The notes under the pieces: generated by a model
What the model was told of the DNA's origin: nothing
What the model saw: only the letters and a program-made list of their open reading frames with translations
Databases searched by the model: none
Shown here: piece after piece, positions 7,380 through 21,842 of the stretch
Numbering within the stretch: position 1 is the stretch's first letter
Layout of the letters: each line of letters starts with the position of its first letter
Made by a program: the position numbers and the translations under genes
From: Nocardioides scoriae
GTDB taxonomy: Bacteria > Actinomycetota > Actinomycetes > Propionibacteriales > Nocardioidaceae
Reading direction: 5' to 3'
Assembly (NCBI RefSeq): GCF_900104965.1
Contig: NZ_LT629757.1
Coordinates: forward strand, 2,542,001-2,606,000
DNA length: 64,000 nucleotides

Positions 7380-7419
7380 CGGGAGACCTTTGTGGAGTGA
7401 GGGATCGGCGGCACGGGTG

Positions 7420-8316
7420 TCAGCCCTTTACGGCGCCGGACATGAACCCGCGGACGTAGTGCCGCTGGAGGACGATGAAGAGGAAGACGCACGGCACGGC
7501 CAGCACGACGACGCCGGCCTCGGTCGCGCCGTAGTCGACGACGCCCATCACCTGCTGACGCATGTTGGCCACGGCCAGGGGCAGCGGCGACTTCGCTGAG
7601 TCGGTGATGAGGATGAGCGGGGTGATGAAGTCGTTCCACGCAGCCAGGAACGCGAAGAGCCCGACGGTGATCATCCCGGGACGGACCGCGGGGAGCAGGA
7701 CGTGACGTAGCGCCGCGAGGGGTCCGCAGCCGTCGACCTGCGCGGCCTCGTCGAGCTCGCGCGGGACCGACTCGAAGGAGATCCGCATCAGGAAGGTCGC
7801 GAAGGGGAGCTGGAACAGCGTCATCACCAGGGCCAACCCCAGGAGCGAGTTGCCGAGCCCCAGGTCGTTGAGGAGCACGTAGAGCGGGATGAGCAGCGTG
7901 GCGTACGGGACCATCAAGATCCCCAGCGTGGCGAGGAAGAGGACGTTCTTGCCGGGGAACCGGAAGCGGGCGAACGCATACCCACCGAGCAGCGAGATCG
8001 TGAGCGTGAACAGCACGGTGAGGCCGGAGACGATGGTGGAGTTCAGGAGGTACTGCCACACGCCGTCCTGGTAGTCGGCCAGCGTGCGGTAGTTGGCCAG
8101 GCCCCACCCGTCGTTCTGCGCGCTGCCGGCCTGCGGTGAGACCGATGCCACGGTGGCCCAGAGCAGGGGGAAGGCGAAGACGACGGCCAGGCCCCCGGTC
8201 AGGACCCACCCGGGTGTGCGCACCACTCCCCCGCGGCGGCGCCGAGGTGGGGTGGACTCCGGGAGCGGTTCCAGAGGGCTCGTGTCTAGCGGCGGGGGCG
8301 TGAGCAGCTGGGCCAT
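7420..8316 (-). CDS. Carbohydrate ABC transporter permease (MalG type)
   Basis: A 298-residue inner-membrane permease with six predicted helices, a Pro/Arg-rich N-terminal cytoplasmic tail, and the ATPase-docking EAA loop (DEAAQVDGCGPLAALRHVLLP). It pairs with the upstream permease to form the channel of a CUT1-type sugar importer. The start is one base past the stop of its partner. No ATPase gene is present here; such importers in actinobacteria commonly share an MsiK-type ATPase encoded elsewhere (established for Streptomyces, inferred here). Confidence 0.93.
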   Translation of the reverse strand: MAQLLTPPPLDTSPLEPLPESTPPRRRRGGVVRTPGWVLTGGLAVVFAFPLLWATVASVSPQAGSAQNDGWGLANYRTLADYQDGVWQYLLNSTIVSGLTVLFTLTISLLGGYAFARFRFPGKNVLFLATLGILMVPYATLLIPLYVLLNDLGLGNSLLGLALVMTLFQLPFATFLMRISFESVPRELDEAAQVDGCGPLAALRHVLLPAVRPGMITVGLFAFLAAWNDFITPLILITDSAKSPLPLAVANMRQQVMGVVDYGATEAGVVVLAVPCVFLFIVLQRHYVRGFMSGAVKG

Positions 8317-8317
8317 G

Positions 8318-9241
8318 TCAGGAGTCCTCGGGGGATCGCATGAGGCGGAAGGTGGCGGCGTTGATCACGAGCAGGGCGACCAGGACGATCAGGGACAGGG
8401 CGGCGGCGATGCCGAGGTCGTTCTTGCCCTGGAAGGCCGTGGAGTAGATGAGCTGGACCACGGTGATCGTGCTGTTGTCGGGTGCGCCCTTGGTGAGGAT
8501 GTAGAACTGGTCGAACGCCAGCAGTGACCCGGTGACGCACATGATCACGCACAGCGCCAGGCTGGGTCGGATGAGCGGCAGCGTGATGTGCCGGAACGCC
8601 TGCCAGCGGTTGGCACCGTCGAGTTCGGCTGCCTCGTAGACGTCCCTGCTGATGCCTTGAAGACCGACCAGGAGCAGGAGCATGTAGAAGCCGGTGAAGC
8701 GCCACACGATGAGGAACACCGTCGACCACAGCGCACTGTCGGGGGTCCCCAGGAACGAGATCGGTTCGTCGATCAGCCCCAGCTTGATGAGCATCGGCGA
8801 GAACGGACCGCTCTGAGGTGAGTAGAGCGCATAGAAGAGCAGCGACGCCGAGGCCAGCCCGATGGCGCTGGGGACCAGGAAGACGGTGCGCAGGAAGCTC
8901 TTCCACCGCGTGGACTCCTGCACCAGCATCGCGAGCCCGAGTCCGAGCCCGAGCAACAGGACGGTGGTGATCACCGTGTACTTCACGGTGAACACGACCG
9001 AGGACCAGAAGAACCGGTCGTTGACGGCATCCGCGAAGTTCTGCGGCACGTTGGTGCCTTGCCTGCCGGCGAACAGCGGCCAGTCCGAGGCCGACATCTG
9101 CGTGACCAGCAGGATCGGGAGGACGAAGAGCACCACCACGAAGACCGCGGTGGGAGCGGCGAAGGCCCACCCCTGGCGCTTCTCGCGGGTCGGGACCCCC
9201 GGTGCTCGTCCCTTCCGGGTACCGAGCGGGACGACCGTCAT
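8318..9241 (-). CDS. Carbohydrate ABC transporter permease (MalF type)
   Basis: A 307-residue permease with about six membrane helices and the EAA loop YEAAELDGANRWQAFRHITLP. It is the first permease after the binding-protein gene and is separated from it by 94 nt containing a strong hairpin. It forms the heterodimeric channel with the following MalG-type gene. Arabino-oligosaccharide or arabinoside uptake is inferred from the GH127 and ara genes downstream. Confidence 0.93.
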   Translation of the reverse strand: MTVVPLGTRKGRAPGVPTREKRQGWAFAAPTAVFVVVLFVLPILLVTQMSASDWPLFAGRQGTNVPQNFADAVNDRFFWSSVVFTVKYTVITTVLLLGLGLGLAMLVQESTRWKSFLRTVFLVPSAIGLASASLLFYALYSPQSGPFSPMLIKLGLIDEPISFLGTPDSALWSTVFLIVWRFTGFYMLLLLVGLQGISRDVYEAAELDGANRWQAFRHITLPLIRPSLALCVIMCVTGSLLAFDQFYILTKGAPDNSTITVVQLIYSTAFQGKNDLGIAAALSLIVLVALLVINAATFRLMRSPEDS

Positions 9242-9289
9242 GGAGTGGCCTCGTTTCGACAGGTGTGGCTGGTGGAAGGTGGGGTGGAG

Positions 9290-9328
9290 CGCCCGGTACG
9301 CCGCTGCATCTGGACGGCGTACCGGGCG
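9290..9328 (-). other. Intercistronic hairpin between binding protein and permeases
   Basis: A perfect 14-bp inverted repeat (arms 9290-9303 and 9315-9328, 11-nt loop) starts 7 nt past the binding-protein stop. Such hairpins after solute-binding-protein genes stabilise or terminate part of the transcript, so that more binding protein than permease is made (known for malE-malF). That role is inferred here. Confidence 0.7.
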
Positions 9329-9335
9329 GATCGGG

Positions 9336-10634
9336 TTACTGCCCCAGGATCGAGTCGAGATCCTCGTTGGCAGCGTCGACCTTGGAGCCGTCGCCGAAGA
9401 CGGCGTCGCGGGTGAGCGTCAGCCAGGGGCTGTTGGGGGCGTTGAAGGCCTCCTGGAAGTTCCTCGCGATGGGGGTCTTGCCCTTGCCCGCGACCTCGTT
9501 GATGGTGACCAGTCGGGGGTCCTTCTCGGAGAACTCGTTGGAGGCCAGGTCAGCGCGCGCCGTGACGTCGCCGTTCTTGGCCAGCACCCCCACCTGGGCG
9601 TCCTCCGACATCAGCCAGGACATGAAGTTCCACGCCTGGGCGTCGTTCTTGCTGTCCTTCGACACCCCGACGCCGTCGCCTCCGACGAACGTCGACTCGC
9701 CACCGTCCGGCCCCGGGATCGGAGCCACACCCACATCGACCGACTGGTCGGCCGTGGCAAGCAGCGTGGCGGGGTAGGGCATCACGCCGACCTTGCCCTC
9801 CTGGAACGGTCCGACCCAGGTGGCGCCGGTCTCGTCCTTGGCGCCGGGCGCGACCGCCTCGGAGTCCACCAGGTCCTTGTAGGTCGAGTAGACCGCCTTG
9901 GCGCTGTCGCCGGTGAGCTCGGACTTCGTGCCGTCCTCGGCCAACACCTCGTCGCCCGCTGCCCAGACCATGGGGAACCAGGTGAAGACCTCGCAGCCAC
10001 CGCAGTTGCCGCCGAAGTAGGTGCCGTTGACCCCACCGCCGAGCGCGTCGACCTTCTTGGCCTGCTCCGCGAAGTCGGCCAGCGATGCCGGCCCCGTCTC
10101 GGGGTCCAGACCGGCCTTCTCGTACAGGTCCTTGTTCCACATCATCACCGACAGGTCGAGGACGAACGGGAGCACGTGCTCCTTGTCGTCGCCCATGCCT
10201 GCCTCGACGTGGCCCTGGTTGATCTCGTCCTTGAAGTCGAGCTGGTCGAAACGCGGGCTGATGTCCTTGAACAAGCCCTGCTCCACCCAGTTGGGCACGT
10301 AGACGATGTCGGCCGCGAACAGGTCGGGCAGACCGTTGCTCCCGGCGGCCGCACCCACCTTGGCGACGTAGTCGTCGTTGGGGACGACGGTGAGCTTGAC
10401 CTGGTTCTCGTGCGACTCGTTGTACGCCGCCACGAGGAGCTTGGCCTGCTTCTCCAGCGGCGCCCGGGTCCACAACGTCAGCTCGGTGCCGTCGTCCACA
10501 CCCTCGGCTCCCCCGTCGGTCGAGACGGCTGAGTCCTCAGCACCCGAGCCACCACCGCAGGCGGTAGTGCCCAGGGCCAGCGCCGCGGTCAGGGCCACGG
10601 CCCGCAGTACTGCGGCCTTGCGAATCTTGATCAT
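9336..10634 (-). CDS. Sugar ABC transporter substrate-binding lipoprotein
   Basis: A 432-residue extracellular solute-binding protein. The signal peptide (MIKIRK, then a hydrophobic stretch ALTAALALG) ends in TTAC, with Cys26 the likely lipidated residue, followed by a Gly/Ser/Asp linker. The family-1 binding-protein fold follows (VDDGTELTLWTRAPLEKQAKLLVAAYNESH). The start at 10634 has GAGGAG about 9 nt upstream; the open frame further upstream is not signal-peptide-like. It heads the transporter/GH127 operon and is divergent from a LacI gene. The ligand is probably an arabinose-containing sugar (inference from neighbours). Confidence 0.92.
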   Translation of the reverse strand: MIKIRKAAVLRAVALTAALALGTTACGGGSGAEDSAVSTDGGAEGVDDGTELTLWTRAPLEKQAKLLVAAYNESHENQVKLTVVPNDDYVAKVGAAAGSNGLPDLFAADIVYVPNWVEQGLFKDISPRFDQLDFKDEINQGHVEAGMGDDKEHVLPFVLDLSVMMWNKDLYEKAGLDPETGPASLADFAEQAKKVDALGGGVNGTYFGGNCGGCEVFTWFPMVWAAGDEVLAEDGTKSELTGDSAKAVYSTYKDLVDSEAVAPGAKDETGATWVGPFQEGKVGVMPYPATLLATADQSVDVGVAPIPGPDGGESTFVGGDGVGVSKDSKNDAQAWNFMSWLMSEDAQVGVLAKNGDVTARADLASNEFSEKDPRLVTINEVAGKGKTPIARNFQEAFNAPNSPWLTLTRDAVFGDGSKVDAANEDLDSILGQ

Positions 10635-10709
10635 GCATGTGCTCCTCGAGCAATCGGGTGGGTTGGCCTGGCGCGAACCACGACGGGCCGAGCCTTCCGG
10701 GCGGAAAGA

Positions 10710-10727
10710 CGAAAACTGCGGTTTTCG
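10710..10727. promoter_or_regulatory. Palindrome O1, candidate LacI operator
   Basis: CGAAAAC-TGCG-GTTTTCG, a perfect 7-bp dyad, lies 76-93 nt upstream of the binding-protein start. Its A/T runs stand out in the GC-rich surroundings. A related palindrome lies about 125 bp away (10836-10851). Likely bound by the divergent LacI protein. Confidence 0.6.
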
Positions 10728-10835
10728 GCGTAGTGCGTGAGTGCTAGCCTCGGGGTTCAGATCGGATCTCGGAGAACCCCAATGAGCTGGCATCTCGTAC
10801 CACTCGCCCGTTCCCGAGGTGGATGTAGTGAAGCG

Positions 10836-10851
10836 CCGAAAACCTTTTCGG
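10836..10851. promoter_or_regulatory. Palindrome O2, candidate LacI operator
   Basis: CCGAAAACCTTTTCGG is a perfect palindromic dyad apart from its CC centre and shares the CGAAAAC...TTTTCG core with the site at 10710. It lies 74-89 nt upstream of the LacI start, so binding could autoregulate the gene. A wider repeat, GTTCCCGA (10810-10817) and TCGGGAAC (10848-10855), overlaps it. Confidence 0.6.
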
Positions 10852-10924
10852 GAACCATAGGTGGCGCCTGTCACACCGTCAAGGGGGCGCGCCCGCTTTC
10901 CTCCACGCACCAGGAGACCCACCG

Positions 10925-11962
10925 ATGACCACCGAGAGCAGACGCGGTGCACGACGCAGTCGCGCGACCACCCTCACCGATGTCGCACGCCTCGCCGGAG
11001 TCTCTGTCGCCACGGCATCGAAGGCTCTGAACGGTCGCGATCAGGTCAAGGCCGAGACCCGCGTCCGAGTGGTCGAGGCCGCCGAACGGTTGTCCTTCTC
11101 CCCCAACGCACTGGCTCGCGGACTCCTGCAGGGCCGCAGCGGCACGGTCGGACTCATCACGAGTGACCTCGACGGGCGCTTCTCGATCCCAGTCCTGATG
11201 GGCGCCGAGGACGCGTTCGGCACGGGAAGCGTGTCGGTCTTCCTCTGCGACGCCCGAGGGGACGCCATCCGCGAGCGCCACCACGTCAACGCGTTGCTCT
11301 CGCAGCGTGTCGATGGCCTCATCGTCGTGGGTTACCAGACGGACCCTCGACCGTCCCTCGGCCCGGACCTGCCGGTTCCCGTCGTGTACGCATACGCCCC
11401 TTCGGAGTCCCCCGACGACGTCTCCATCACCGCCGACAACGTCGAGGCCGGCGCCATGGCCGTGGAGCACCTGCTCTCCTGCGGCCGCCGGCGGATCGCC
11501 CACATCTCGGGCGACCCGACCTACACCGCGGCACAGGACCGTTCGCGAGGCGCACTCCGCGCTCTGGACGACGCTGGCCTGTCCATGGTCGGCGACCAGA
11601 CCTACTTCGGAGCTTGGACCGAGGCCTGGGGCCGCGCCGCGGCCCGCCTGGTCCATCGCCAGCACCCCGACCTCGACGCCATCTTCTGCGGCAGCGACCA
11701 GATCGCTCGGGGCGTCCTGGACACGCTCGGCGAACTCGGCCGCGACGTGCCACGCGACGTCTCGGTCATCGGATTCGACAACTGGGAGGCGATCGCCACC
11801 GGCGCTCGACCCGCGCTGACCAGCATCGACATGAACCTCGAGACCATCGGCGAACGGGCAGCCAAACGGCTGTTCCGCGCCATCGACGGCGACGCCCCGA
11901 GCGGTGTCGAGTCCGTCTCCTGCCGGCTCGTCACCCGCGAATCGACCCTCACCTTGGACTAG
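10925..11962 (+). CDS. LacI-family regulator divergent from the sugar transporter
   Basis: A 345-residue LacI/GalR repressor with helix-turn-helix TLTDVARLAGVSVATASKALNG (about residues 16-37), hinge SPNALARGL, and a sugar-binding core ending in VIGFDNWEAIATGARPALTSIDMN. The ATG at 10925 follows an AGGAGA site. It is read away from the transporter/GH127 operon, and two similar palindromes sit in the shared 290-bp promoter region; control of both directions is the simplest reading. It differs clearly from the LacI protein at 4149-5261, so uptake and catabolism may answer to different effectors. Confidence 0.9.
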   Translation: MTTESRRGARRSRATTLTDVARLAGVSVATASKALNGRDQVKAETRVRVVEAAERLSFSPNALARGLLQGRSGTVGLITSDLDGRFSIPVLMGAEDAFGTGSVSVFLCDARGDAIRERHHVNALLSQRVDGLIVVGYQTDPRPSLGPDLPVPVVYAYAPSESPDDVSITADNVEAGAMAVEHLLSCGRRRIAHISGDPTYTAAQDRSRGALRALDDAGLSMVGDQTYFGAWTEAWGRAAARLVHRQHPDLDAIFCGSDQIARGVLDTLGELGRDVPRDVSVIGFDNWEAIATGARPALTSIDMNLETIGERAAKRLFRAIDGDAPSGVESVSCRLVTRESTLTLD

Positions 11963-12526: not shown

Positions 12527-12572
12527 TGGAGCCGCCTGTCGGAATCGAACCGACGACCTTCTCATCACGAGT
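12527..12572 (-). repeat. attachment-site-like copy of the tRNA-Thr 3' half
   Basis: Forty-five of 46 bases match the intact tRNA-Thr at 21767-21812. The match starts exactly at the encoded CCA and stops in the anticodon loop; the only difference (12566) is tRNA position 37. The D arm and 5' acceptor strand are absent, so it is not a functional tRNA. Confidence 0.85.
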
Positions 12573-12586
12573 AGGTAAGTCGAACA

Positions 12587-12629
12587 CCCCAGGTCAGCAA
12601 GCTGCAACATCGCGCTGACCTGGGGTTTT
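12587..12629 (+). terminator. Hairpin with T-run beside the tRNA-Thr fragment
   Basis: A perfect 12-bp stem (CCCCAGGTCAGC at 12587-12598, complement at 12614-12625), 15-nt loop, then TTTT on the plus strand: a classic intrinsic terminator. Its CCCAGGTCAG core is repeated in the terminator at 12849-12876, suggesting duplicated sequence around the two tRNA fragments. Confidence 0.7.
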
Positions 12630-12680
12630 GTCACGCACGACCACCTGTCGCTACGCATCACTGCGCACCACCAGGCAACG

Positions 12681-12713
12681 TTTAGTGGGACTTTATTGGG
12701 AGTTTGTTGGGAC
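12681..12713. repeat. Three tandem 11-bp repeats (integrase arm-site-like)
   Basis: TTTAGTGGGAC (12681-12691), TTTATTGGGAG (12692-12702) and TTTGTTGGGAC (12703-12713) follow one another without gaps. They lie between the two tRNA fragments. Short tandem repeats near a tRNA-derived core are typical of the arm sites bound by phage and ICE tyrosine integrases. The assignment is inference from form and place. Confidence 0.55.
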
Positions 12714-12785
12714 CTCGCGGCCACCATCTCGCGCCAAGACGTGGGCGCGCCGATCGTCGAGAAGGGGTCCCAGACTGTCGCGGCC

Positions 12786-12839
12786 GAGCATCTGACTACG
12801 GATCAGAAGGTTAGGGGTTCGAACCCCTTCAGGCGCACC
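12786..12839 (+). pseudogene. Truncated tRNA-Arg(ACG), 3' part only
   Basis: From GAGCA onward the sequence gives a complete anticodon arm (TCTGA, loop CTACGGA, TCAGA; anticodon ACG), variable loop, T arm GGGG-TTCGAA-CCCC and 3' acceptor strand with ACC. The 5' acceptor strand and the first half of the D arm are missing; upstream DNA does not pair. This is the form left at the far end of an element integrated in tRNA-Arg. The last base of CCA reads G. Confidence 0.8.
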
Positions 12840-12848
12840 GATGACGGA

Positions 12849-12876
12849 GCCCCAGGTCAGTTCGCTGACCTGGGGC
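12849..12876 (+). terminator. Terminator behind the tRNA-Arg fragment
   Basis: A perfect 12-bp stem GCCCCAGGTCAG (12849-12860) closed by a TTCG tetraloop, followed by TTCTGT. This was presumably the terminator of the original tRNA-Arg gene carried with its 3' end. Confidence 0.75.
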
Positions 12877-13180
12877 TTCTGTCATCTCGCACGGCGCGCC
12901 ATGTCGCAGCGTGACCGAGCCGCGGTTCACGCTGGCCGCGACGGCACACGGAGGGCCCACGGAGGACGCAGCAGGCAGCCGGAGCCGCGCCGGTGGAGAC
13001 TCGAAGGGGTCCGAGGGTCGGCCCTCGGCGACCACCCACCACGACGCCGGGGGCCCAGGGACGCCTCCCCGTCGGAGCCGAGGACGTGGCTGACGCACGG
13101 CTGTACACGTGGCACACCTCGCCGTCGACCTGTCGCGGCTCCGGGCGGGGGCACGGCAGCGTCGTGGGCTCGGTCCCGTC
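12877..13180. other. Non-coding stretch, nothing recognised
   Basis: About 300 bases between the tRNA-Arg terminator and the MarR stop. Short open frames occur on both strands but have no ribosome sites and unlikely composition. No promoter, RNA or repeat was recognised. Confidence 0.5.
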
Positions 13181-13642
13181 TCACCAGGGTGGCGTGGCCC
13201 AGTCCGGGTCCTCGATCTCGCCGGCGGCCCGGTTGAACACCTCCAGGGCCTGGACCACCTGGGCGGTCTGCTCAGGTGTCATGCGGTCCAAGACCTTCTC
13301 GACCTCCACGTGGCGCCGGGCGGTCACGGCCCTGACCAGGTCAGCCCCTTGGGGGCTGAGGCTGATGACGACGACGCGTCTGTCCTGCTCGGAGCGGGTG
13401 CGTGAAATCAAGTTGAGTCGCTGGAGGCGGTCGCAGATGCGTGTGGCGTTGGAGGGGTTGACGCCGAGGCCGTCGGCGATGTCACCCACCGGCTGGTCGC
13501 CTCGGGCGGAGAGCAGGACCAGGACCCGGTGCTGGGCGAGCGTCACCTCGACGGGTGCCTCTGCGATGGTTCGGACCGCCAGGCTGAGCAGGGCCCGGCT
13601 GGCGGTCACGAACGCACTGGTCTGGTCTTGAGGTGATGCCAC
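13181..13642 (-). CDS. MarR-family transcriptional regulator
   Basis: A 153-residue winged-helix protein: dimerisation helix, then VTLAQHRVLVLLSARGDQPVGDIADGLGVNPSNATRICDRLQRLNLISRTRSEQDRRVVVISLSPQG, the MarR recognition helix and wing with the DxR(R) signature. GTG start at 13642 with GGAG about 11 nt upstream. It lies 97 nt past the ZIP gene on the same strand. It may sense a small molecule or oxidant and control the divergent ZIP / oxidoreductase promoter region, where an inverted repeat is found (14562-14597). The target is inferred. Confidence 0.88.
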   Translation of the reverse strand: MASPQDQTSAFVTASRALLSLAVRTIAEAPVEVTLAQHRVLVLLSARGDQPVGDIADGLGVNPSNATRICDRLQRLNLISRTRSEQDRRVVVISLSPQGADLVRAVTARRHVEVEKVLDRMTPEQTAQVVQALEVFNRAAGEIEDPDWATPPW

Positions 13643-13739
13643 GTCGATGATGCTCCTGTTCGTCGGTCGACCCTGACGCTAGTTCGTCCGATCACCTCCG
13701 CGGCGCCATCGCGGGACAGCTCAGCCGCTGGGCACGACG

Positions 13740-14492
13740 TCAGCCCAGCTTCTCCAGGGCGAAGGACAGTGCGAACCCGATGGTGGCGACGAAGCCGGCG
13801 TACAGGTGGGCCTTCTCGAACGCTTCGGGCAGCATCGTGTCGGCGACCATCGCCAAGATGGCACCGGCAGCGACTGCGGTGATGGCTGCGACCACGGCGG
13901 CGGGGGCGCCGCCGAGGAGGAGCACCCCCAGGGCCCCGGCAACGCCGCTGATGACGGCGATGCCGCACCAGACGCCGAACACGTGGCGGGCACTGCGGCC
14001 GGCCCGCTTCATCCCCGCAGCGCTGGACAGACCCTCGGGCAGGTTGGAGATGAACACCGCCGCCAGCACCGACAGGCCGACGCCGTGCCCGGCCAGGAGG
14101 GTCAGCCCCAGCACGATCGACTCCGGCACTCCATCAAGGAGGGCGCCGATGGCGATGGCCGTGCCGCTACCGGACTGCTCATCCTCCGACGGCTGCTGGT
14201 CGCCTGCCCGTTTGCGGTGGCGAGCGCCCTTCGCGGCTAGCGCGACATTGGCCGCCACGTAGACGGCTGCGCCACCGAGGAACCCGACCAGCGTGGGTGT
14301 CAGCCCGCCTTTCGACTCGGCCTCGGCCACGAGGTCGTAGGCAAGCGCCGAGATCAGCACCCCGGCGCCGAAGGCCATCACCCCGGCGACGACCGCGCGC
14401 GGGACCGAGACGAACCACGCGACCAGGGCGCCCAGGACCAGCGCGCCACCGGCCAGGACACCCCACAGCCCTGCCTGGATCCAGATCGGCAT
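13740..14492 (-). CDS. ZIP-family divalent metal transporter
   Basis: A 250-residue membrane protein with eight predicted helices. A charged, His/Lys/Asp-rich loop (RHRKRAGDQQPSEDEQ) sits between helices 3 and 4, as in ZIP proteins. The metal-path motifs are GALLDGVPESIVLG (helix 4) and AVFISNLPEGLSSA (helix 5), the prokaryotic version of HNxPEG / HExPHE. The ATG at 14492 has GGGGAG close by and removes an implausible 41-residue extension. It is divergent from the molybdopterin oxidoreductase and could supply a metal to the island's enzymes. The substrate (Zn, Fe, Mn) cannot be told from sequence. Confidence 0.88.
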   Translation of the reverse strand: MPIWIQAGLWGVLAGGALVLGALVAWFVSVPRAVVAGVMAFGAGVLISALAYDLVAEAESKGGLTPTLVGFLGGAAVYVAANVALAAKGARHRKRAGDQQPSEDEQSGSGTAIAIGALLDGVPESIVLGLTLLAGHGVGLSVLAAVFISNLPEGLSSAAGMKRAGRSARHVFGVWCGIAVISGVAGALGVLLLGGAPAAVVAAITAVAAGAILAMVADTMLPEAFEKAHLYAGFVATIGFALSFALEKLG

Positions 14493-14561
14493 GTGCTCTC
14501 CCCACGTCTCGTGCGACGGCCGCGCGAGGTCGGCGCAGCGGCGTCGGATCTCGTCAACATT

Positions 14562-14597
14562 TACTTGCGCATCAGCATAGTTGCGTGTAAGCAAGTA
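14562..14597. promoter_or_regulatory. Inverted repeat in the ZIP / oxidoreductase divergent promoter
   Basis: TACTTGC (14562-14568) and GCAAGTA (14591-14597) form a 7-bp dyad with a 22-nt spacer; inside it TTGC-GTGTAA-GCAA (14581-14594) is a second, tighter dyad. The site is 42 nt or more upstream of the oxidoreductase start and 70 nt or more upstream of the ZIP start. It is a candidate operator for the nearby MarR protein. Confidence 0.45.
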
Positions 14598-14638
14598 GTG
14601 CAACCCTTCCACCACCCGTACGACGACGAGGACATGTC

Positions 14639-17170
14639 ATGGCCGACCGCATCAACGACATCTGGGTAGAGCGCACGCCCCACGCACGGGGGACCACCTG
14701 GCCGGCGCGGGTCGACCAGTACCTCGACGAGGGCGTCACGGAGGCCGATGTGGAGAAGTGGGTGCAGTCGGCGTGCCTGTTGTGCAGCAACGGCTGCGGG
14801 GCCGACATCGCGGTCAAGGACGGACGCATGGTCGGCATCCGGGGCCGTGCCGGCGACACCGTCAACCACGGCCGCCTGGGTCCCAAGGGTCTGTACGGCA
14901 GCACCCCGTGGGCGTCGTCGCCCGACCGGCTCACCCGTCCGTTGGTCCGTGAAGGCGGGCGGCTGGTCGAGACCGACTGGGAGACCGCGATGGGTCGCGT
15001 CGTCGAGGTCTCCAAGAAGTTGCTGGCCGAGAAGGGGCCGCTCTCGCACGGGTTCTACACCAGCGGCCAGCTGTTCCTGGAGGAGTACTACACGCTGGCG
15101 GTCATCGGGAAGGCCGGTCTCGGCACCCCCCACATGGACGGCAACACCCGGCTGTGCACCGCCACGAGTGCGGCGGCGTTCAAGGAGTCCTTCGGCGCCG
15201 ACGGACAGCCCGGCTCCTACACCGACATCGAGGCGTGCGACGCGATCTTCCTGTTCGGGCACAACATGCCCGAGACCCAGACCGTGCTCTGGGCACGAAT
15301 CCTGGACCGCACCCGCGGCGATGACCCGCCCCGCATCGTCTGCGTCGACCCCCGGCGGACCATGGTGGCGATGGAGGCCGAGCGCACCGGCGGCGTCCAC
15401 CTCGCCCCCCGGGTGGGCACGAACCTGGCGCTGATGAACGGCCTGACCCGCGAGCTCTTCGCCCACGACTGGGTCGACGAGGCCTGGGTCGCCGGGCACA
15501 CGATGGGCGTGGAGGAGCTGCGGGCCACCGTCGCGCCGTACACGCCGACCCGGGTCGCCGAGATCTGCGGTGTCGAGTCCGAGGACGTACGCCGCGCGGC
15601 CCGCATCTTCGGTGAGTCGCAGGCCGTGCTGTCGACCGTCCTGCAGGGGTTCTACCAGTCCCACCGGGCCACCGCCGCGTCCGTGGCGGTGCACAACCTG
15701 CACCTGCTACGTGGCCAGATCGGGCGGCCCGGCAGCGGGGTGCTGCAGATGAACGGCCAGCCCACCGCGCAGAACAACCGCGAGTGCGGCGCCGACGGCG
15801 ACCTGCCCGGATTCCGCAACTGGGACAACCCCGCCCACGTCCAGCAGCTCGCCGACCTGTGGAACGTCGACGTGATGACGGTCCCGCACTGGGCGCCGCC
15901 GACCCACGCGATGCAGATCATGCGCTACGCCGAGACCGGCTCCATCGGCTTCTTGTGGATCTCCGCGACCAACCCGGCGGTGTCCATGCCGGAGTCGGCT
16001 CGCATCCGCAAGATCCTCACCGGCGACCAGTGCTTCACCGTGGTCCAGGACCTGTTCCTCACCGAGACCGCCGAGCTCGCTGACGTGGTCCTGCCCGCGG
16101 CCGGTTGGGGTGAGAAGACCGGGTGCTTCACCAACGTCAACCGCACCGTCCACCTCTCCGAGCAAGCCGTCGAACCTCCCGGGGAGGCCCGCAGCGACCT
16201 CGACATCTTCTTGGCCTACGCCAACGCCATGGGGTTCACCGACAAGGACGGCGACCCGCTGATCACCTGGCGTACCTCCGAGGAGGCGTTCGACGCCTGG
16301 AGGGGGGCCACCCGCGGCCGGCCCGTCGACTACACCGGGCTGTCCTACGACAAGCTTCGCGGCCCCACCGGCATCCCGTGGCCGGTCAACGACGAGCACC
16401 CCGACGGCACCGACCGGCTGTACGCCGACGGCGTCTTCCCGACCGACACCGACACGTGCGAGACCTACGGCCACGACCTGCTCACCGGCGGCACCGTCAC
16501 CGAGACCGAGCACCGGGCGATGAACCCCGCTGGGCGGGCGTTCCTCAAGGGAGCCGACTGGACCCCGGCGCACGAGGAGCCGTCGGTGGACTACCCGCTG
16601 CGCTACACCACCGGGCGCACCGCCTACCAGTTCCACACCCGCACCAAGACCGGCCGCTCCACGGCTCTGCACCGAGCCGCACCCGACGCGTGGGTCGAGC
16701 TCAACCCCGCCGACGCGGAGCCGCTGGGCATCGCGGAGGGCGACTGGGTGCGGGTGGAGTCACCCCGCGGGTCCATCGAGGTCCGTGCCCGCATCGGCCA
16801 GGTCATGGAAGGTGCGGTGTTCGCACCGTTCCACTACGGCCACTGGGACCCCGACGAACTGACCGCCGCTGAGCCGGCCGACCGCGACCACCGGTTGGCG
16901 AACGAGCTGACGATGACGGTGTGGGACCCGGTGTCCAAGCAGCCGTACTTCAAGACGGCGGCCTGCAGGGTTACGAAGGTTCGTGACGGTGACGGTCCTG
17001 CTCCGGCTCCGACGACCACGGCCTCGGCCCCCCGCCCCAGCCTCAGCTCGGACCGGGGACCAGGTGGCACCGGAGGGGTGCCTTCGCCGCCGCCGGGCCC
17101 CGCCACCACGTCCTACGTGCTCGAGACCACCCCCACCTACCCGCTCGACCCGACCCAAGGGAGGTCCTGA
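14639..17170 (+). CDS. Molybdopterin oxidoreductase lacking one Fe-S cysteine
   Basis: An 843-residue protein of the DMSO-reductase superfamily, closest in layout to NarB/NasA-type nitrate reductases and formate dehydrogenases. The N-terminal [4Fe-4S] motif has Cys46, Cys49 and Cys53 (ACLLCSNGC), but the fourth ligand, normally in G-x-L-C-x-K-G, is Gly81 (GRLGPKG). The presumed Mo-ligating cysteine is present, Cys173 in NTRLCTATSAAA. A molybdopterin-dinucleotide binding domain lies at about residues 650-780, followed by a Pro/Ser/Thr-rich tail of about 60 residues unlike the family. There is no Tat signal, so it is cytoplasmic. GAGGA precedes the ATG. It heads a six-gene coupled operon; the next start overlaps its stop (TGATG). 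Substrate and electron partner are unknown. Confidence 0.85.
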   Translation: MADRINDIWVERTPHARGTTWPARVDQYLDEGVTEADVEKWVQSACLLCSNGCGADIAVKDGRMVGIRGRAGDTVNHGRLGPKGLYGSTPWASSPDRLTRPLVREGGRLVETDWETAMGRVVEVSKKLLAEKGPLSHGFYTSGQLFLEEYYTLAVIGKAGLGTPHMDGNTRLCTATSAAAFKESFGADGQPGSYTDIEACDAIFLFGHNMPETQTVLWARILDRTRGDDPPRIVCVDPRRTMVAMEAERTGGVHLAPRVGTNLALMNGLTRELFAHDWVDEAWVAGHTMGVEELRATVAPYTPTRVAEICGVESEDVRRAARIFGESQAVLSTVLQGFYQSHRATAASVAVHNLHLLRGQIGRPGSGVLQMNGQPTAQNNRECGADGDLPGFRNWDNPAHVQQLADLWNVDVMTVPHWAPPTHAMQIMRYAETGSIGFLWISATNPAVSMPESARIRKILTGDQCFTVVQDLFLTETAELADVVLPAAGWGEKTGCFTNVNRTVHLSEQAVEPPGEARSDLDIFLAYANAMGFTDKDGDPLITWRTSEEAFDAWRGATRGRPVDYTGLSYDKLRGPTGIPWPVNDEHPDGTDRLYADGVFPTDTDTCETYGHDLLTGGTVTETEHRAMNPAGRAFLKGADWTPAHEEPSVDYPLRYTTGRTAYQFHTRTKTGRSTALHRAAPDAWVELNPADAEPLGIAEGDWVRVESPRGSIEVRARIGQVMEGAVFAPFHYGHWDPDELTAAEPADRDHRLANELTMTVWDPVSKQPYFKTAACRVTKVRDGDGPAPAPTTTASAPRPSLSSDRGPGGTGGVPSPPPGPATTSYVLETTPTYPLDPTQGRS

Positions 17171-17631
17171 TGCCACACCTGTCCACCTACGTCGGCCTGG
17201 CCGACCACAGCGAGCAGACCTTGGCCGACTCCTTCCGTGCCGTCGCTGAGGGCCACGCCGCCGAGGCAGACGTGTTCCACACCTGCCACCTCCTGGCCCA
17301 GATGAGCGACCACCATCGCGACGCCTTGGCCGAGGCCGTCGAGCGGTACGGCGAGGACGACCTCGACGAGCCCGAACGACTTCACGCGTCCGGGTTGGTC
17401 GAGGTCAGGAGCGGTCCGATCGGGTTGCTGCGCGACCTCCAGGACCTCCACGTCCTGGCCACGCTGGTCCAGACGACGTGGACGGTCATCGCCCAAGGCG
17501 CCCAGGGCCTGCGCGACCACGACCTCCTCGACGTCGCCACCTCCTCCTCCGCGCAGACCACCCGGCAGCTGTCCTGGTTGAACACCCGGATGAAGGCCGC
17601 CGCCCCCCAAGCCCTGATCGTCGCGCCGTGA
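17170..17631 (+). CDS. Small His-rich helical protein, partner of the oxidoreductase (unknown)
   Basis: A 153-residue, nearly all-helical protein without signal or membrane segment. His and acidic residues are spaced along the first helices (His13, Glu15, His29, Glu32, His37, His40, His48, His49), which resembles a ferritin-like or hemerythrin-like four-helix bundle; a bound metal is possible but not shown. It starts within the stop codon of the molybdo-enzyme gene and its stop overlaps the GH15 start, so it is made with both. It could be an electron-transfer or assembly subunit. I do not recognise a named family. Confidence 0.7.
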   Translation: MPHLSTYVGLADHSEQTLADSFRAVAEGHAAEADVFHTCHLLAQMSDHHRDALAEAVERYGEDDLDEPERLHASGLVEVRSGPIGLLRDLQDLHVLATLVQTTWTVIAQGAQGLRDHDLLDVATSSSAQTTRQLSWLNTRMKAAAPQALIVAP

Positions 17632-19406
17632 ACCGCCCCACCCACCTCCCGGTCCCGCTGCGTCAGTACGCCCTGCTCGCCGACGGCGAGCGCGGCGCGC
17701 TCATCGGGCCCCACGGGAACATCGCGTTCCTGTGCGCTCCTCGCTGGCACGACGACGCCATCTTCTCCTCCCTGCTCGGCGGGTCGGGGCGCTACGTCGT
17801 GAGCCCACAGGACCCCCGCTACGTCTGGGGCGGCCACTACGAGGCCGACACCCTGATCTGGCGCAGCCGCTGGGTCGCGACGGGCGCCATCATCGAGTGC
17901 CGCGAGACACTCGCGTTCCCCGGCGACCCCGACACGCTCGTCCTCCTCCGTCGCATCGAGGCCACCCACGGCGATGCCCACGTCGAGGTCGAGCTCGACT
18001 GCCGTGCCGAGTTCGGAGCACGCGCCATGATCGTCAGCCGCAGCACCGACGGCACCTGGTCCGGCCACACCGGCGACCTGCACTTCCGGTGGTCCGGTGC
18101 GCCCACCTGGGCACACCTCGACAACGACACCCTGCGGGTCACCATCGACGTCCCCGCCGGCGGCCACCACGACCTCGTCCTCGAGATCAGCCGCCAACGG
18201 CCGACCGGGCCGCTTCCCGACGCGGGCCGGGCGTGGGAACGCACCGAGCGTGCCTGGGCCGCTGCCCGACCCGACGTGTCGGCCTCCGCCGCCCCCGGGG
18301 ACTCCCGCCACTCCCACGCCGTCCTGCGCGGTCTCACCGGCTCGACCGGCGCGATGGTCGCCGCCGCGACGACGGCCCTGTCCGAACGAGCCGACAAGGG
18401 CCGCAACTACGACTACCGCTACGCCTGGATCCGCGACCAGTGCTACGCCGGCCAAGCCGCCGCCGCCATCGGCAGCCACGACCTCCTCGACGCCGCCGTC
18501 CGGTTCGTGTCCGAACGGGTCCTCGACGACGGCGCCATGCTGAGGCCCGCCTACACCGTGACCGGTGACCCGGTCCCCGACGAACGCTCCGTGGCCCTTC
18601 CCGGCTACCCGGGCGCACCCGTCCGGGTCGGGAACCACGCCAACACCCAGTTCCAGCTCGACTCGCTCGGGGAGTCGCTGCTCCTCCTCGCCACCGCCGA
18701 CCAGGGTGGCCGGCTCGACGCAGCAGGTCAGAGAGCCATCGAGGTGCTGGTCGATGCGGTCGAGAAACGACGCCACGACCCGGACGCCGGCATCTGGGAG
18801 CTCGAGGACCGCCACTGGGCCCACTCCCGCCTCATGTGCGCCGCGGGCCTCCGCGCAGCAGCCGACCGACGCGGCGGCCGCGTCGGTGTCGAGTGGGAGC
18901 AGCGGGCGGACCGGCTCGTAGCCTCCGTCGACGCCGACTGCCTTCACCCGACCGGTCGCTGGCAACGCTCACCCCACGACCCGGGCGTCGACGCCGCCCT
19001 CCTCCTGCCCGGGATCCGCGGCGCCGTCTCCGCCCAGGACCCGCGCAACCTGGCCACCATCGACGCCGTCATCACAGACCTCACCGACGACGGCTACGTC
19101 TACCGGTTCCGTCAGCACGACGACACCGCGATGCACGACGCCGAGGGCGCGTTCGTCCTGTCCGGCTTCCACCTCGCCCTGGCCAGCCTGGGACGTGGCG
19201 ACGTCCTGGGCGCCACGCGGTGGTTCGAGCGCAACCGCGGCTCGCTCGGCCCACCCGGGCTGTTCACCGAGGAGTACGACGTCGTCCAGCGCCAGCTCCG
19301 CGGCAACGTGCCCCAAGCCTTCGTCCACGCCCTGCTCATCGAGACCGCCCAACGCCTCGGCGAGGCCGGCCTCGGCAGCCAAGGCTTCACCGCCCGCCGG
19401 CGCTGA
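17628..19406 (+). CDS. GH15 family glucosidase (glucoamylase/trehalase type)
   Basis: A 592-residue protein: N-terminal beta-sandwich domain, then an (alpha/alpha)6 barrel. Family marks are NYDYRYAWIRDQCYAG in the barrel, the general acid in GIWELEDRHWAHSRLMCAAGL, and the general base in LFTEEYDVVQRQLRGNVPQAFVHALLI. The GTG at 17628 overlaps the previous stop (GTGA) and begins the conserved RQYALLADGERGALIGPHGNIAFLCAPRW segment; the frame further upstream lies inside the preceding gene. No signal peptide, so intracellular. GH15 includes glucoamylases, glucodextranases and the mycobacterial trehalase; which activity applies is open. Confidence 0.88.
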   Translation: MNRPTHLPVPLRQYALLADGERGALIGPHGNIAFLCAPRWHDDAIFSSLLGGSGRYVVSPQDPRYVWGGHYEADTLIWRSRWVATGAIIECRETLAFPGDPDTLVLLRRIEATHGDAHVEVELDCRAEFGARAMIVSRSTDGTWSGHTGDLHFRWSGAPTWAHLDNDTLRVTIDVPAGGHHDLVLEISRQRPTGPLPDAGRAWERTERAWAAARPDVSASAAPGDSRHSHAVLRGLTGSTGAMVAAATTALSERADKGRNYDYRYAWIRDQCYAGQAAAAIGSHDLLDAAVRFVSERVLDDGAMLRPAYTVTGDPVPDERSVALPGYPGAPVRVGNHANTQFQLDSLGESLLLLATADQGGRLDAAGQRAIEVLVDAVEKRRHDPDAGIWELEDRHWAHSRLMCAAGLRAAADRRGGRVGVEWEQRADRLVASVDADCLHPTGRWQRSPHDPGVDAALLLPGIRGAVSAQDPRNLATIDAVITDLTDDGYVYRFRQHDDTAMHDAEGAFVLSGFHLALASLGRGDVLGATRWFERNRGSLGPPGLFTEEYDVVQRQLRGNVPQAFVHALLIETAQRLGEAGLGSQGFTARRR

Positions 19407-19456
19407 CCCGCACCCAGGCCAGCACCCCGACCATCGCAACCCACCAGGAGCACCCC

Positions 19457-20476
19457 ATGTCAGACCCCCACCCCCACCGTTCACGCGTCGTCGTCATCAC
19501 CGGAGCATCCGGAGGCATCGGCCGCGCCAGCGCCCGCATGTTCGCCGCCCGCGGCGACCGCGTCGCCCTCCTCGCCCGCGGCACCACCGGCCTCGAGGCC
19601 GCCGCCGCCGAGATCCGCGCCGGCGGCGGCACCGCCCTGCTCATCAGCGTCGACACGGCCGACCACGGGGCCCTCGAGGCGGCCGCCGACCAGGTCGAGG
19701 CCGAGCTGGGACCCATCGACGTGTGGGTCAACGACGCGTTCACCTCGGTCTTCGCCCGCTTCGTCGACATCACCCCCGAGGAGTTCGACCGCGTCACCCA
19801 GGTCACCTACCTGGGCTTCGTCAACGGCACCCGCACCGCGTTGACGCGGATGCTGCCCCGCGACCGCGGCATCATCGTCCAGGTCGGCTCCGCCCTGGCG
19901 CACCGCGGCATCCCGCTGCAGTCGGCGTACTGCGGCGCCAAGCACGCCATGTGGGGGTTCCACGAGTCGCTGCTGACGGAGCTGCGCCACGACCGCACCC
20001 ACGTCCAGGTGACCTCGGTCGCCATGCCCGGGGTCAACACCCCCCAGTTCACCTGGGTGCTGTCCAAGCTCCCGATGAAGGCCCAACCGGTACCGCCGTT
20101 CTACCAGCCCGAGGTCGCCGCCCGCGGAGTCCTCCACGCTGCCGACCACCCCGAACGACGCGCCTACTGGGTCGGCGCCGCCACCGCCGGAACCATCCTC
20201 GCCAACCGCGTCGCCGGCGGCCTCCTGGACCGCTACCTCGCGAAGACCGGCATCGGCTCCCAGCAGACCGACCAGAGGCGGCCCGCCGAGCACCCGACGA
20301 ACCTGTGGGAACCCGCCGACGGCCCCGACGGGCACGACTACGGCGCTCACGGCCCGTTCGACGACCGCGCCCTGGCCCACTCACCCCAGCAGTGGGCCTC
20401 CCAGCACCGGCGTGCCCTCGGCCTCGGCGCCGGCCTTGCCGCAGCCGCCGCAGTTGCCGCCCGGCGGGCAGCATGA
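19457..20476 (+). CDS. Short-chain dehydrogenase/reductase
   Basis: A 339-residue classical SDR with the NAD(P) motif TGASGGIG at about residues 15-22, an NDAF segment in place of the usual NNAG, the catalytic serine in VQVGSALA and Tyr-x3-Lys in SAYCGAKH. About 80 C-terminal residues beyond the SDR core end in an Ala-rich hydrophobic helix (ALGLGAGLAAAAAVAARRAA), which could anchor it to the membrane. The ATG at 19457 follows CAGGAG and lies 50 nt past the GH15 stop, the only real gap in the operon. The next gene overlaps by four bases. Substrate unknown. Confidence 0.88.
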   Translation: MSDPHPHRSRVVVITGASGGIGRASARMFAARGDRVALLARGTTGLEAAAAEIRAGGGTALLISVDTADHGALEAAADQVEAELGPIDVWVNDAFTSVFARFVDITPEEFDRVTQVTYLGFVNGTRTALTRMLPRDRGIIVQVGSALAHRGIPLQSAYCGAKHAMWGFHESLLTELRHDRTHVQVTSVAMPGVNTPQFTWVLSKLPMKAQPVPPFYQPEVAARGVLHAADHPERRAYWVGAATAGTILANRVAGGLLDRYLAKTGIGSQQTDQRRPAEHPTNLWEPADGPDGHDYGAHGPFDDRALAHSPQQWASQHRRALGLGAGLAAAAAVAARRAA

Positions 20477-20835
20477 CGCCGCCACGAGCGGTTGACCTCG
20501 CCCGCTTCGCCGTGGGCGCCGTCGCACTGACGCGGCCGCAGACGCTGCTGATGTCGAGCCCGGGTGACGACAGCGATGGCACACGCCGCGTCGTCCGCAT
20601 CCTCGGCGCCCGTTACGTCGTTCAAGCGGCCGGTGGCACGCTCGCCCGCCGCCCCTGGGTGACCGCCGTCGACGCCGGCGTCGACGTCGTCCACGCCGTG
20701 TCCATGGCCGGTGTTGCGGCCCTGGCGCCCCGGCACCGCCGACTCGCCCTCACCAGCCTGGCCGCGGCGCTCGTGTTCGCCGCCGCCGACCTCAGCGACC
20801 AACGAGCGCCGTCCAGGGCGGAGGTCCGGTCGTGA
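20473..20835 (+). CDS. Small membrane protein of unknown function
   Basis: A 120-residue protein with two or three hydrophobic segments (about residues 10-25, 70-85 and 90-108), joined by a soluble loop (SSPGDDSDGTRRVVRILGARYVVQ). Its ATG overlaps the SDR stop (ATGA), and its stop overlaps the next GTG, so it is a real member of the coupled operon. No family was recognised with confidence. Confidence 0.7.
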   Translation: MTPPRAVDLARFAVGAVALTRPQTLLMSSPGDDSDGTRRVVRILGARYVVQAAGGTLARRPWVTAVDAGVDVVHAVSMAGVAALAPRHRRLALTSLAAALVFAAADLSDQRAPSRAEVRS

Positions 20836-21647
20836 CCGTCCCGCCGCGCCATGGACCAGACGCCACGCCAGCCTCGTCGGCCTCCCCCGAGGAAGGGGCC
20901 GGCAGCAGCCCTGCCCACGGCACCGGATCGACCTCGAGCACCCGGCGCCACACGCTGGTGAGACCGCGCCTCGTCTGGAGCGGCCTGGCCCTGGCGCTCC
21001 TGGGAGTCGTGGTGGCAGGCGTCGGCCTGATGTCCTCGGCCTGGCTCCTGGTCGGCGGCGCAGTACTCGTCCTGGTCATCGGCGCATGCCTCAGCTGGGC
21101 GGGTGGCGCCATGCACGACGCCACGACCGGCCTGGACCTGCGCGACGAGCTCCGGGCCGTCCGGGACGGCACCACCCATCCCGGGGTCAGGGCGGGCGCC
21201 CAGACCGGCAGCCCCGCAGCCCGTGCGGAAGCGGCACGGCAGACCCGGGTCACCCAGCAGGTCCTCGACCAGGCGCGCCACACGTCTGCCTCCGACTGGA
21301 CGAAGCCAGCCGGCTGGACCCTGCTGCTCGTGGCCGCGGTGCTCCTGGTCTCCCAGTGGGAGCTGGTCGCGCACTCCGCAACCGGGCGGAGCAACAGCTA
21401 CCTCGACACCGCCGTCGCGACCGTGCTCGCCCTCGTCGGCCTGCGCCAGGCCCTCACCCCAGGCCCCCACCGCATCGCCGCAGCGCTGGGCGGCCTCAGC
21501 GGGCTCGGGCTCACCCTGAACGGTGTCCTCGCGCCCCACGACCACCTGAGCCTGGCGGTCGTCGAGACGGTCGGGGGCCTGGTGGCACTGCTGTGCGCCG
21601 CCGCGGCGACACTCTCGACCCGGACCAGGACCAGGCCAGGCAGCTGA
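20832..21647 (+). CDS. Six-helix membrane protein of unknown function
   Basis: A 271-residue protein with a disordered Ser/Pro/Gly N-terminus (about 45 residues), two close membrane helices (about 50-90), a charged cytoplasmic stretch (HDATTGLDLRDELRAVRDG ... QVLDQARH) and three or four more helices (about 160-260). The GTG overlaps the preceding stop. It is the last operon gene before the tRNA-Thr repeat. No named family was recognised; it could anchor or regulate the soluble enzymes upstream. Confidence 0.7.
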   Translation: MTVPPRHGPDATPASSASPEEGAGSSPAHGTGSTSSTRRHTLVRPRLVWSGLALALLGVVVAGVGLMSSAWLLVGGAVLVLVIGACLSWAGGAMHDATTGLDLRDELRAVRDGTTHPGVRAGAQTGSPAARAEAARQTRVTQQVLDQARHTSASDWTKPAGWTLLLVAAVLLVSQWELVAHSATGRSNSYLDTAVATVLALVGLRQALTPGPHRIAAALGGLSGLGLTLNGVLAPHDHLSLAVVETVGGLVALLCAAAATLSTRTRTRPGS

Positions 21648-21766
21648 GAACACATGACCTCCCCGGACGACGTCGAGTCCACCGACGATTCTCAGTCCAC
21701 GACGGCCCGCTGGCTCAGGCCCCAGGCCCCTGGAGTGCGACGTCGCAGGTGGGAGGCCCCTCCTCC

Positions 21767-21842
21767 TGGAGCCGCCTGTCGGAATCGAACCGACGACCTT
21801 CTCATTACGAGTGAGACGCTCTACCGACTGAGCTAAGGCGGC
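21767..21842 (-). tRNA. tRNA-Thr(CGT)
   Basis: Cloverleaf read on the minus strand: acceptor GCCGCCT/AGGCGGC, D arm GCTC-GAGC, anticodon stem TCTCA/TGAGA with loop CTCGTAA (anticodon CGT, Thr), T arm GTCGG-TTCGATT-CCGAC, discriminator T and an encoded CCA (21769-21767). Its 3' 46 bases are repeated at 12527-12572. Confidence 0.96.

Follow-up and report, generated by a model that had tools for sequence, protein, structure and literature searches.

A molybdoenzyme with an incomplete FS0 site and a predicted ferritin-like partner share a tRNA-bounded stretch with a GH15 module in Nocardioides scoriae

We analysed a 64,000-nucleotide stretch of Nocardioides scoriae DNA (contig NZ_LT629757.1, positions 2,542,001 to 2,606,000; hereafter the window, with positions counted from its first nucleotide). 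Six consecutive forward-strand genes in the window encode a NapA/NasC-type molybdoenzyme (MO), a small protein (B), a glycoside hydrolase family 15 (GH15) protein, a short-chain dehydrogenase/reductase (SDR), a small protein of 120 amino acids (aa) (E120) and a membrane protein of 271 aa (F271). An earlier reading made from the letters alone (the sequence-only reading) had taken the six as one coupled operon and one system. The coordinates agree with the coupling: neighbouring genes overlap four times (by 1, 4, 4 and 4 nt) and are separated once, by 50 nt between GH15 and SDR, and none of the six contains an internal stop. The single pathway is unlikely, since MO-B and the GH15 genes are mostly found apart in other genomes. 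Our preferred reading, held tentatively, is that one tRNA-Thr-bounded stretch carries two modules under one MarR regulator, an FS0-incomplete MO with its partner B and a GH15-SDR-E120 set.

MO and B are a separately conserved unit

MO (843 aa, 14639 to 17170) and B (153 aa, 17170 to 17631) both lack internal stops, and together they are a separately conserved module, the real unit at this locus. Homologous loci (L numbers) were taken as the best 80 from a pattern scan of one-genome-per-species contigs, and 34 further loci, which may share species with the first set, were fetched from whole-genome searches. B lies directly after MO in 73 of the 80 and 33 of the 34 loci, and in most loci the two genes have a start/stop junction in common. 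The seven loci of the 80 without B are two with runs of N where B is expected (L031, L050), three with a partial MO match (L079, L084, L087) and two four-Cys Acidobacteriota (L085, L086). B is absent beside the four-Cys relatives examined. MO occurs at 57% identity or higher in 19 genomes (G numbers) of a phylum sample of 296, with B adjoining in 17; the exceptions are G141, in which MO stands at a contig end, and G197, weighed below. A B fragment with no MO match was found in G270, an assembly that is 82% complete. Because MO is split in L080 and L148, its best match there and B are more than 1 kb apart. Across 54 loci the sequence distances of MO and B correlate (r = 0.85), and for 28 of them the nearest neighbour is the same by either protein. 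Apparent MO-B gene fusions in L024 and L068 were rejected, as the single frames cross stretches of N or a frame shift. Two copies of MO-B, on different contigs, occur in Nocardioides sp. Soil774 (L012, L013), and in G326 MO is broken into four pieces, of which two are N-terminal and two C-terminal, spread over three contigs.

The FS0 cluster site of MO is incomplete

MO has the Pfam domains Molybdopterin, Molydop_binding and Fe4S4, and its fold matches the NapA/NasC type over 691 residues (root-mean-square deviation 2.0). It scores below the NCBIfam cut-offs for NasC (379.8 versus 1100 bits) and NapA (326.2 versus 904 bits), and a four-Cys relative beside NirB (L126) is likewise under the NasC cut-off (539 versus 1100). 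The motif tally of the family covers 73 rows and the tree 72; the tally is without L024, L026, L031, L059, L079, L080, L084 and L087, in which MO is uncalled or longer than 1000 aa.

In enzymes of the NapA/NasC type four cysteines normally bind the FS0 iron-sulfur cluster, a [4Fe-4S] centre. In the family alignment the FS0 site of the window MO (14774 to 14797) consists of C46, C49 and C53, and the position of NapA's fourth FS0 cysteine is G81 (14879 to 14881, by alignment to 2jim). The first three positions read C-C-C in 31 rows and S/T-H-D in 39 rows. The fourth cysteine is absent from the whole aligned family, the position being G or D in 70 of 70 readable rows, and the no-Cys clade has cysteine at none of the four positions and keeps H49 and D53 in 39 of 39 rows. 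Cysteine occupies position 200 in 30 of 31 three-Cys rows and in 4 of 39 no-Cys rows. The molybdenum-ligand position C173 (15155 to 15157) is kept in 73 of 73 rows, followed in 71 of them by T174, which stands where NapA has a Met next to the Mo cysteine. Also invariant are R381 and the lysine K83, which together with C173 fit a working Mo centre. MO is set apart from formate dehydrogenase by C173-T174, where FdhF (7qv7) has C-H, and from the arsenite oxidase AioA, which has no amino-acid ligand to Mo, by the conserved C173. Beyond the NapA core, alignment column counts revealed a conserved DGPAPAPTTTASAP tail motif (16991 to 17032). MO probably acts in the cytoplasm as a reductase whose substrate is nitrate, nitrite or another small oxyanion of this kind, and its likely ancestor is assimilatory nitrate reductase. 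We infer that it works with a three-cysteine cluster, or with none in the no-Cys clade, and the MO-B enzymes appear to be a family that is giving up a cofactor on which the assembly of related enzymes depends.

B, whose structure the sequence-only reading had suggested predicting, is modelled as a ferritin-like four-helix bundle with conserved polar positions E15, H29, H49, D89 and Q133. The Pfam scan of the window proteins gave no family for B, E120 or F271, and B passed no cut-off in it, that of DUF892 (YciF) included.

Small-anion permeases adjoin MO-B

Nitrite- or anion-type permease genes stand beside MO-B in 27 of the 114 loci. HPP-family genes adjoin it in 4 of the 80 and 6 of the 34 loci, YaaH-like genes in 6 and 6, and SLAC1-type genes in 5 and 0; the YaaH assignment is weak (22.8 bits versus a cut-off of 25). 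Of the 10 HPP and 12 YaaH-like genes that the 34 genomes contain in total, six each are those beside MO-B. In cyanobacteria and plastids, HPP proteins have been described as transporters of nitrite (PMC10605003). A DUF6766 gene was also seen near MO-B in L008, L023, L028, L079, L081 and L154.

GH15, SDR and E120 form a second module

The GH15-SDR-E120 set is a second module, conserved apart from MO-B. The GH15 protein (592 aa, GTG start, no internal stop, 17628 to 19406) is of the glucoamylase/trehalase kind and combines GH15 and TREH_N domains (PF00723, 131.3 bits versus a cut-off of 22; PF19291, 52.6 bits), reaches 174.8 bits with the TreH1 model versus a cut-off of 820, and has no relative of solved structure at E <= 0.001. 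E391 and E549, which we take to be the catalytic residues, are invariant in 13 GH15 rows. The SDR (339 aa, 19457 to 20476) is an adh_short protein of the NCBIfam PRK07109 subfamily (NF005495, 445.4 bits, cut-off 264). E120 (20473 to 20835) has no Pfam match; its homologues lie beside SDR/GH15 in 11 of 12 compared loci, and six of the seven foreign GH15 loci have one (L090-L095). Homologues of F271 (GTG start, 20832 to 21647) were found in L010, L012, L016 and L173. The family search gave nothing above noise for E120 or F271 even at E up to 5. As a simple hydropathy scan found membrane stretches in F271 and none in E120, the proposal of two membrane proteins is supported for one of them.

A sample of 117 genomes of the order contains GH15 in 8, with SDR within about 2 kb in all 8, and an MO-B-type MO in 19. 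GH15 falls within the fetched stretch in 4 of the 80 MO loci (L009, L010, L012, L016), and also in L173. The six-gene order of the window is repeated in L010, and both modules lie within one 18-kb stretch in L012, L016 and L173.

A shared MarR operator

A MarR-family regulator gene (153 aa, 13181 to 13642, reverse strand; PF01047, 58.6 bits, cut-off 24.6) and a ZIP-like metal transporter gene (250 aa, 13740 to 14492, reverse strand, start placed at a conserved MPIW) are divergent to MO. Between them and MO lies a tandem operator of two WTGC-N6-GCAW sites 2 bp apart (14565 to 14594), likely bound by the MarR protein. These are the only two such sites in the window, and the tandem is the only one in the genome. 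A MarR homologue is divergent to MO in 11 loci besides the window. All 12 loci with a divergent MarR have the site no more than 250 bp upstream of MO, as does 1 of the 14 loci scanned among the 20 three-Cys loci that have no such MarR; the background is 26 sites in 592 kb outside those upstream regions. A first operator guess, an ACTTGC...GCAAGT palindrome drawn from the window only, was absent in the other loci tested and was replaced by this motif.

The motif was derived from MO promoters, and the tests free of circularity are the GH15 promoters, L173 and a scan of 149 genomes of the family. In L012 and L016 a tandem site likewise stands in front of GH15. Each of the four foreign GH15 loci with MarR (L090, L091, L092, L094) has one site between MarR and GH15, and L093 and L095, which are without MarR, have none. 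In the 149 genomes the tandem occurs in three, at the MO promoter described here, in the gap between GH15 and ZIP in G498 (L173, a locus with MO-B as well) and at the MarR-ZIP promoter of G446 (L174); the reversed control pattern occurs in none. As the same operator precedes MO and, in several relatives, the GH15 module, the two modules likely share one MarR regulon. Some functional tie had been raised by the sequence-only reading, and it is supported by the recurrence of the MO operator before GH15 in L012, L016, L173 and four loci of another family. The MarR-ZIP pair of L174 (9017-10326) has its own tandem operator, and the 18 kb read there contain no MO, so that the switch exists apart from MO as well. 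L083 has a thirteenth MarR of this cluster, which does not lie near MO, and one site inside SDR in L089 is probably due to chance. A glucose dehydrogenase gene (PF16912) lies beside MarR, divergent to MO, in L012, L013, L015, L016 and L173.

The modules lie in a probable tRNA-bounded insert

An intact tRNA-Thr (CGT) gene (21767 to 21842, reverse strand) forms the right, attR-like border of a 9,240-bp insert (12527 to 21766) that holds eight genes, the regulator included. Its last 46 bp (21767 to 21812) recur at the left, attL-like border (12527 to 12572, reverse strand) with 45 of 46 positions identical. The hydrolase gene to the right of the tRNA is present in 24 of 24 genomes of the genus, and the tRNA adjoins it in 17 of 24 other fetched loci of the genus. 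Genes of the E120/F271 region stand beside this hydrolase in the N. scoriae genome only, the cargo being missing in the 24 other genus loci. The repeated tRNA end and the cargo-free relatives fit a genomic-island-like insertion at the tRNA end. No integrase stands out among the open reading frames of the insert, in which no family search aimed at integrases was made. The sequence-only reading had described a tRNA-flanked island with its own MarR and metal transporter; island and regulator are borne out, and the transporter gene is present but scores 29.9 bits for PF02535, under the cut-off of 35.1.

Just inside the left border, 12808 to 12839 resembles the 3' end of another tRNA, whose type is a guess on our part, and a second, nested insertion scar is possible there. 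Partial second copies of the tRNA-Thr end (42-43 bp) lie beyond the tRNA in L189 and L196 and suggest an insertion hotspot. To the left of the insert (5406 to 11962) are a GH127 (beta-L-arabinofuranosidase family) gene, sugar ATP-binding cassette transporter genes and a LacI-type regulator gene.

A proposed mechanism and its alternatives

In the mechanism we propose, MO would work in the cytoplasm on a small oxyanion, which it would reduce with no normal FS0. By binding to the N-terminal, FS0-poor half of MO, B would take over the role of the cluster in folding and cofactor insertion, and it would then either stay as a subunit or leave as a chaperone. That B supplies what FS0 contributes is suggested by NarG, in which FS0 insertion is described as a prerequisite for molybdenum cofactor insertion and loss of FS0 ligands blocks it (PMC10609526), and by NasC, which needs the chaperone NarJ for its maturation (PMC6618116). 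A MarR ligand or a stress would release transcription of both operons, and GH15 and SDR, joined by glucose dehydrogenase in some relatives, would convert a stored glucoside to sugar and reducing power. Most probably, then, the insert carries two effectors in one regulon, which MarR would control in response to stress or nutrients. We consider it possible, though rather unlikely, that a Cys-type family of the NapA/NasC branch is losing FS0 in two steps (from four Cys to three, and then to none), having first recruited a protein of ferritin fold that takes over from the cluster in assembling and feeding the Mo centre, with MarR coupling the sugar module to the enzyme in some actinobacteria.

Several results weigh against these proposals. 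In G197 (L133/L153) MO looks intact and keeps the tail motif, yet no B follows it, which makes this genome a true exception to the pairing. B has no Foldseek match at E <= 0.001, and a profile comparison of B with an actinobacterial ferritin gave no significant homology (E 0.17, probability 0.4%). DUF892 matches 3 of 59 B members at a best E of 1e-4, and unrelated families reach 0.002-0.02. With T174 in place of the NapA Met, nitrate as the substrate is a guess. Beside MO, the window carries neither an HPP nor a YaaH-like nor a recognised SLAC1 gene, and the N. scoriae genome also carries a set of NarK-type, four-Cys-type Mo and NirB-like genes (L134:2607-7654). Co-occurrence of the modules is rare, GH15 and MO being found together in 1 of the 117 order genomes, that of N. 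scoriae itself.

B might instead be a subunit with a redox or metal function, relaying electrons to the Mo centre as a substitute for FS0, and not a maturation partner, an alternative that we regard as unlikely. Its near-constant co-encoding with MO, its absence beside the four-Cys relatives, its predicted ferritin-like fold and its conserved polar positions would suit that role. Q133 and W136, which by helix order we assume to align with the ferritin Glu and His positions if the fold alignment holds, would argue against a di-iron site, and no haem-binding motif was noticed in B, where none was searched for. It is doubtful that MO is an ordinary assimilatory-type nitrate reductase whose cluster is held by another ligand, with the sugar genes as chance neighbours in an insertion hotspot. 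The strong NapA/NasC similarity, the extra tRNA copies and C200 as a possible substitute FS0 ligand favour this view; it is countered by the no-Cys clade with its constant H49 and D53, by the operator common to both modules (L012, L016, L173, L090-L092, L094) and by the absence of NirB and NarK among the window genes scanned.

That MO is no longer a redox enzyme, having become a redox-neutral Mo enzyme or a binding or sensor protein, seems improbable. Loss of the electron relay would favour it, as would the fact that no flavin, Rieske or ferredoxin partner gene recurs beside MO-B in the clustered neighbourhoods; against it stand the invariant C173, R381 and K83 and the known family members that are active reductases without a cluster (PMC10100899). 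Least probable of all, and very improbable in our estimate, is one dedicated six-gene pathway such as the oxidation of a glucoside-derived aglycone. The coupled order in the window and L010, the stretches that hold both modules and the shared operator speak for it, but 76 of the 80 MO-B loci have no GH15 in the fetched stretch and 7 of the 8 GH15-SDR genomes of the order sample have no MO. The six genes are thus largely not conserved together, which the sequence-only reading had named as its own refutation. Aglycone oxidation finds no support; the recurring neighbours of MO-B are small-anion permeases.

Comparison with known systems

Searches of the open-licence PubMed Central (PMC) literature listed no paper on the MO-B family. 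A widespread family that retains the Mo cysteine and has lost one or all of the FS0 cysteines, with living intermediates, would allow a direct test of how a Mo enzyme manages without the cluster and of whether a new protein replaces FS0. An unnamed protein family with more than 1,700 database relatives would also gain a context tied to function.

Like the chaperones NarJ, TorD and DmsD, B is small and helical by prediction, and its gene accompanies that of a Mo enzyme, but it differs from them in its predicted ferritin-like fold and in lacking a chaperone Pfam domain, with no match in the window B and none listed among 59 members. From the ferritin-like YciF/DUF892 stress proteins it is separated by the lack of a Pfam match in the window member and by its strict linkage to a Mo enzyme. 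MO shares with NapA and NasC the fold, the Mo-ligand Cys, the R381 region and the FS0 lysine, whereas the fourth FS0 cysteine is gone family-wide, all four are gone in one clade and T replaces M after the Mo cysteine. It also differs from them in having no signal and no NarK or NirB partner, and in having its own partner B and a conserved tail. With IdrA it has in common an incomplete set of FS0 cysteines; IdrA is reported to carry a [3Fe-4S] cluster at such a site, and [3Fe-4S] clusters are also given for the AioA/IdrA clade (PMC10100899). DorA, TorA and BisC have lost the N-terminal cluster (PMC10100899 and PMC10609526). They form a branch with Ser-coordinated Mo, unlike MO, which lies on the Cys-coordinated NapA/NasC branch, so that a loss of the cluster in the MO-B family would be a separate event.

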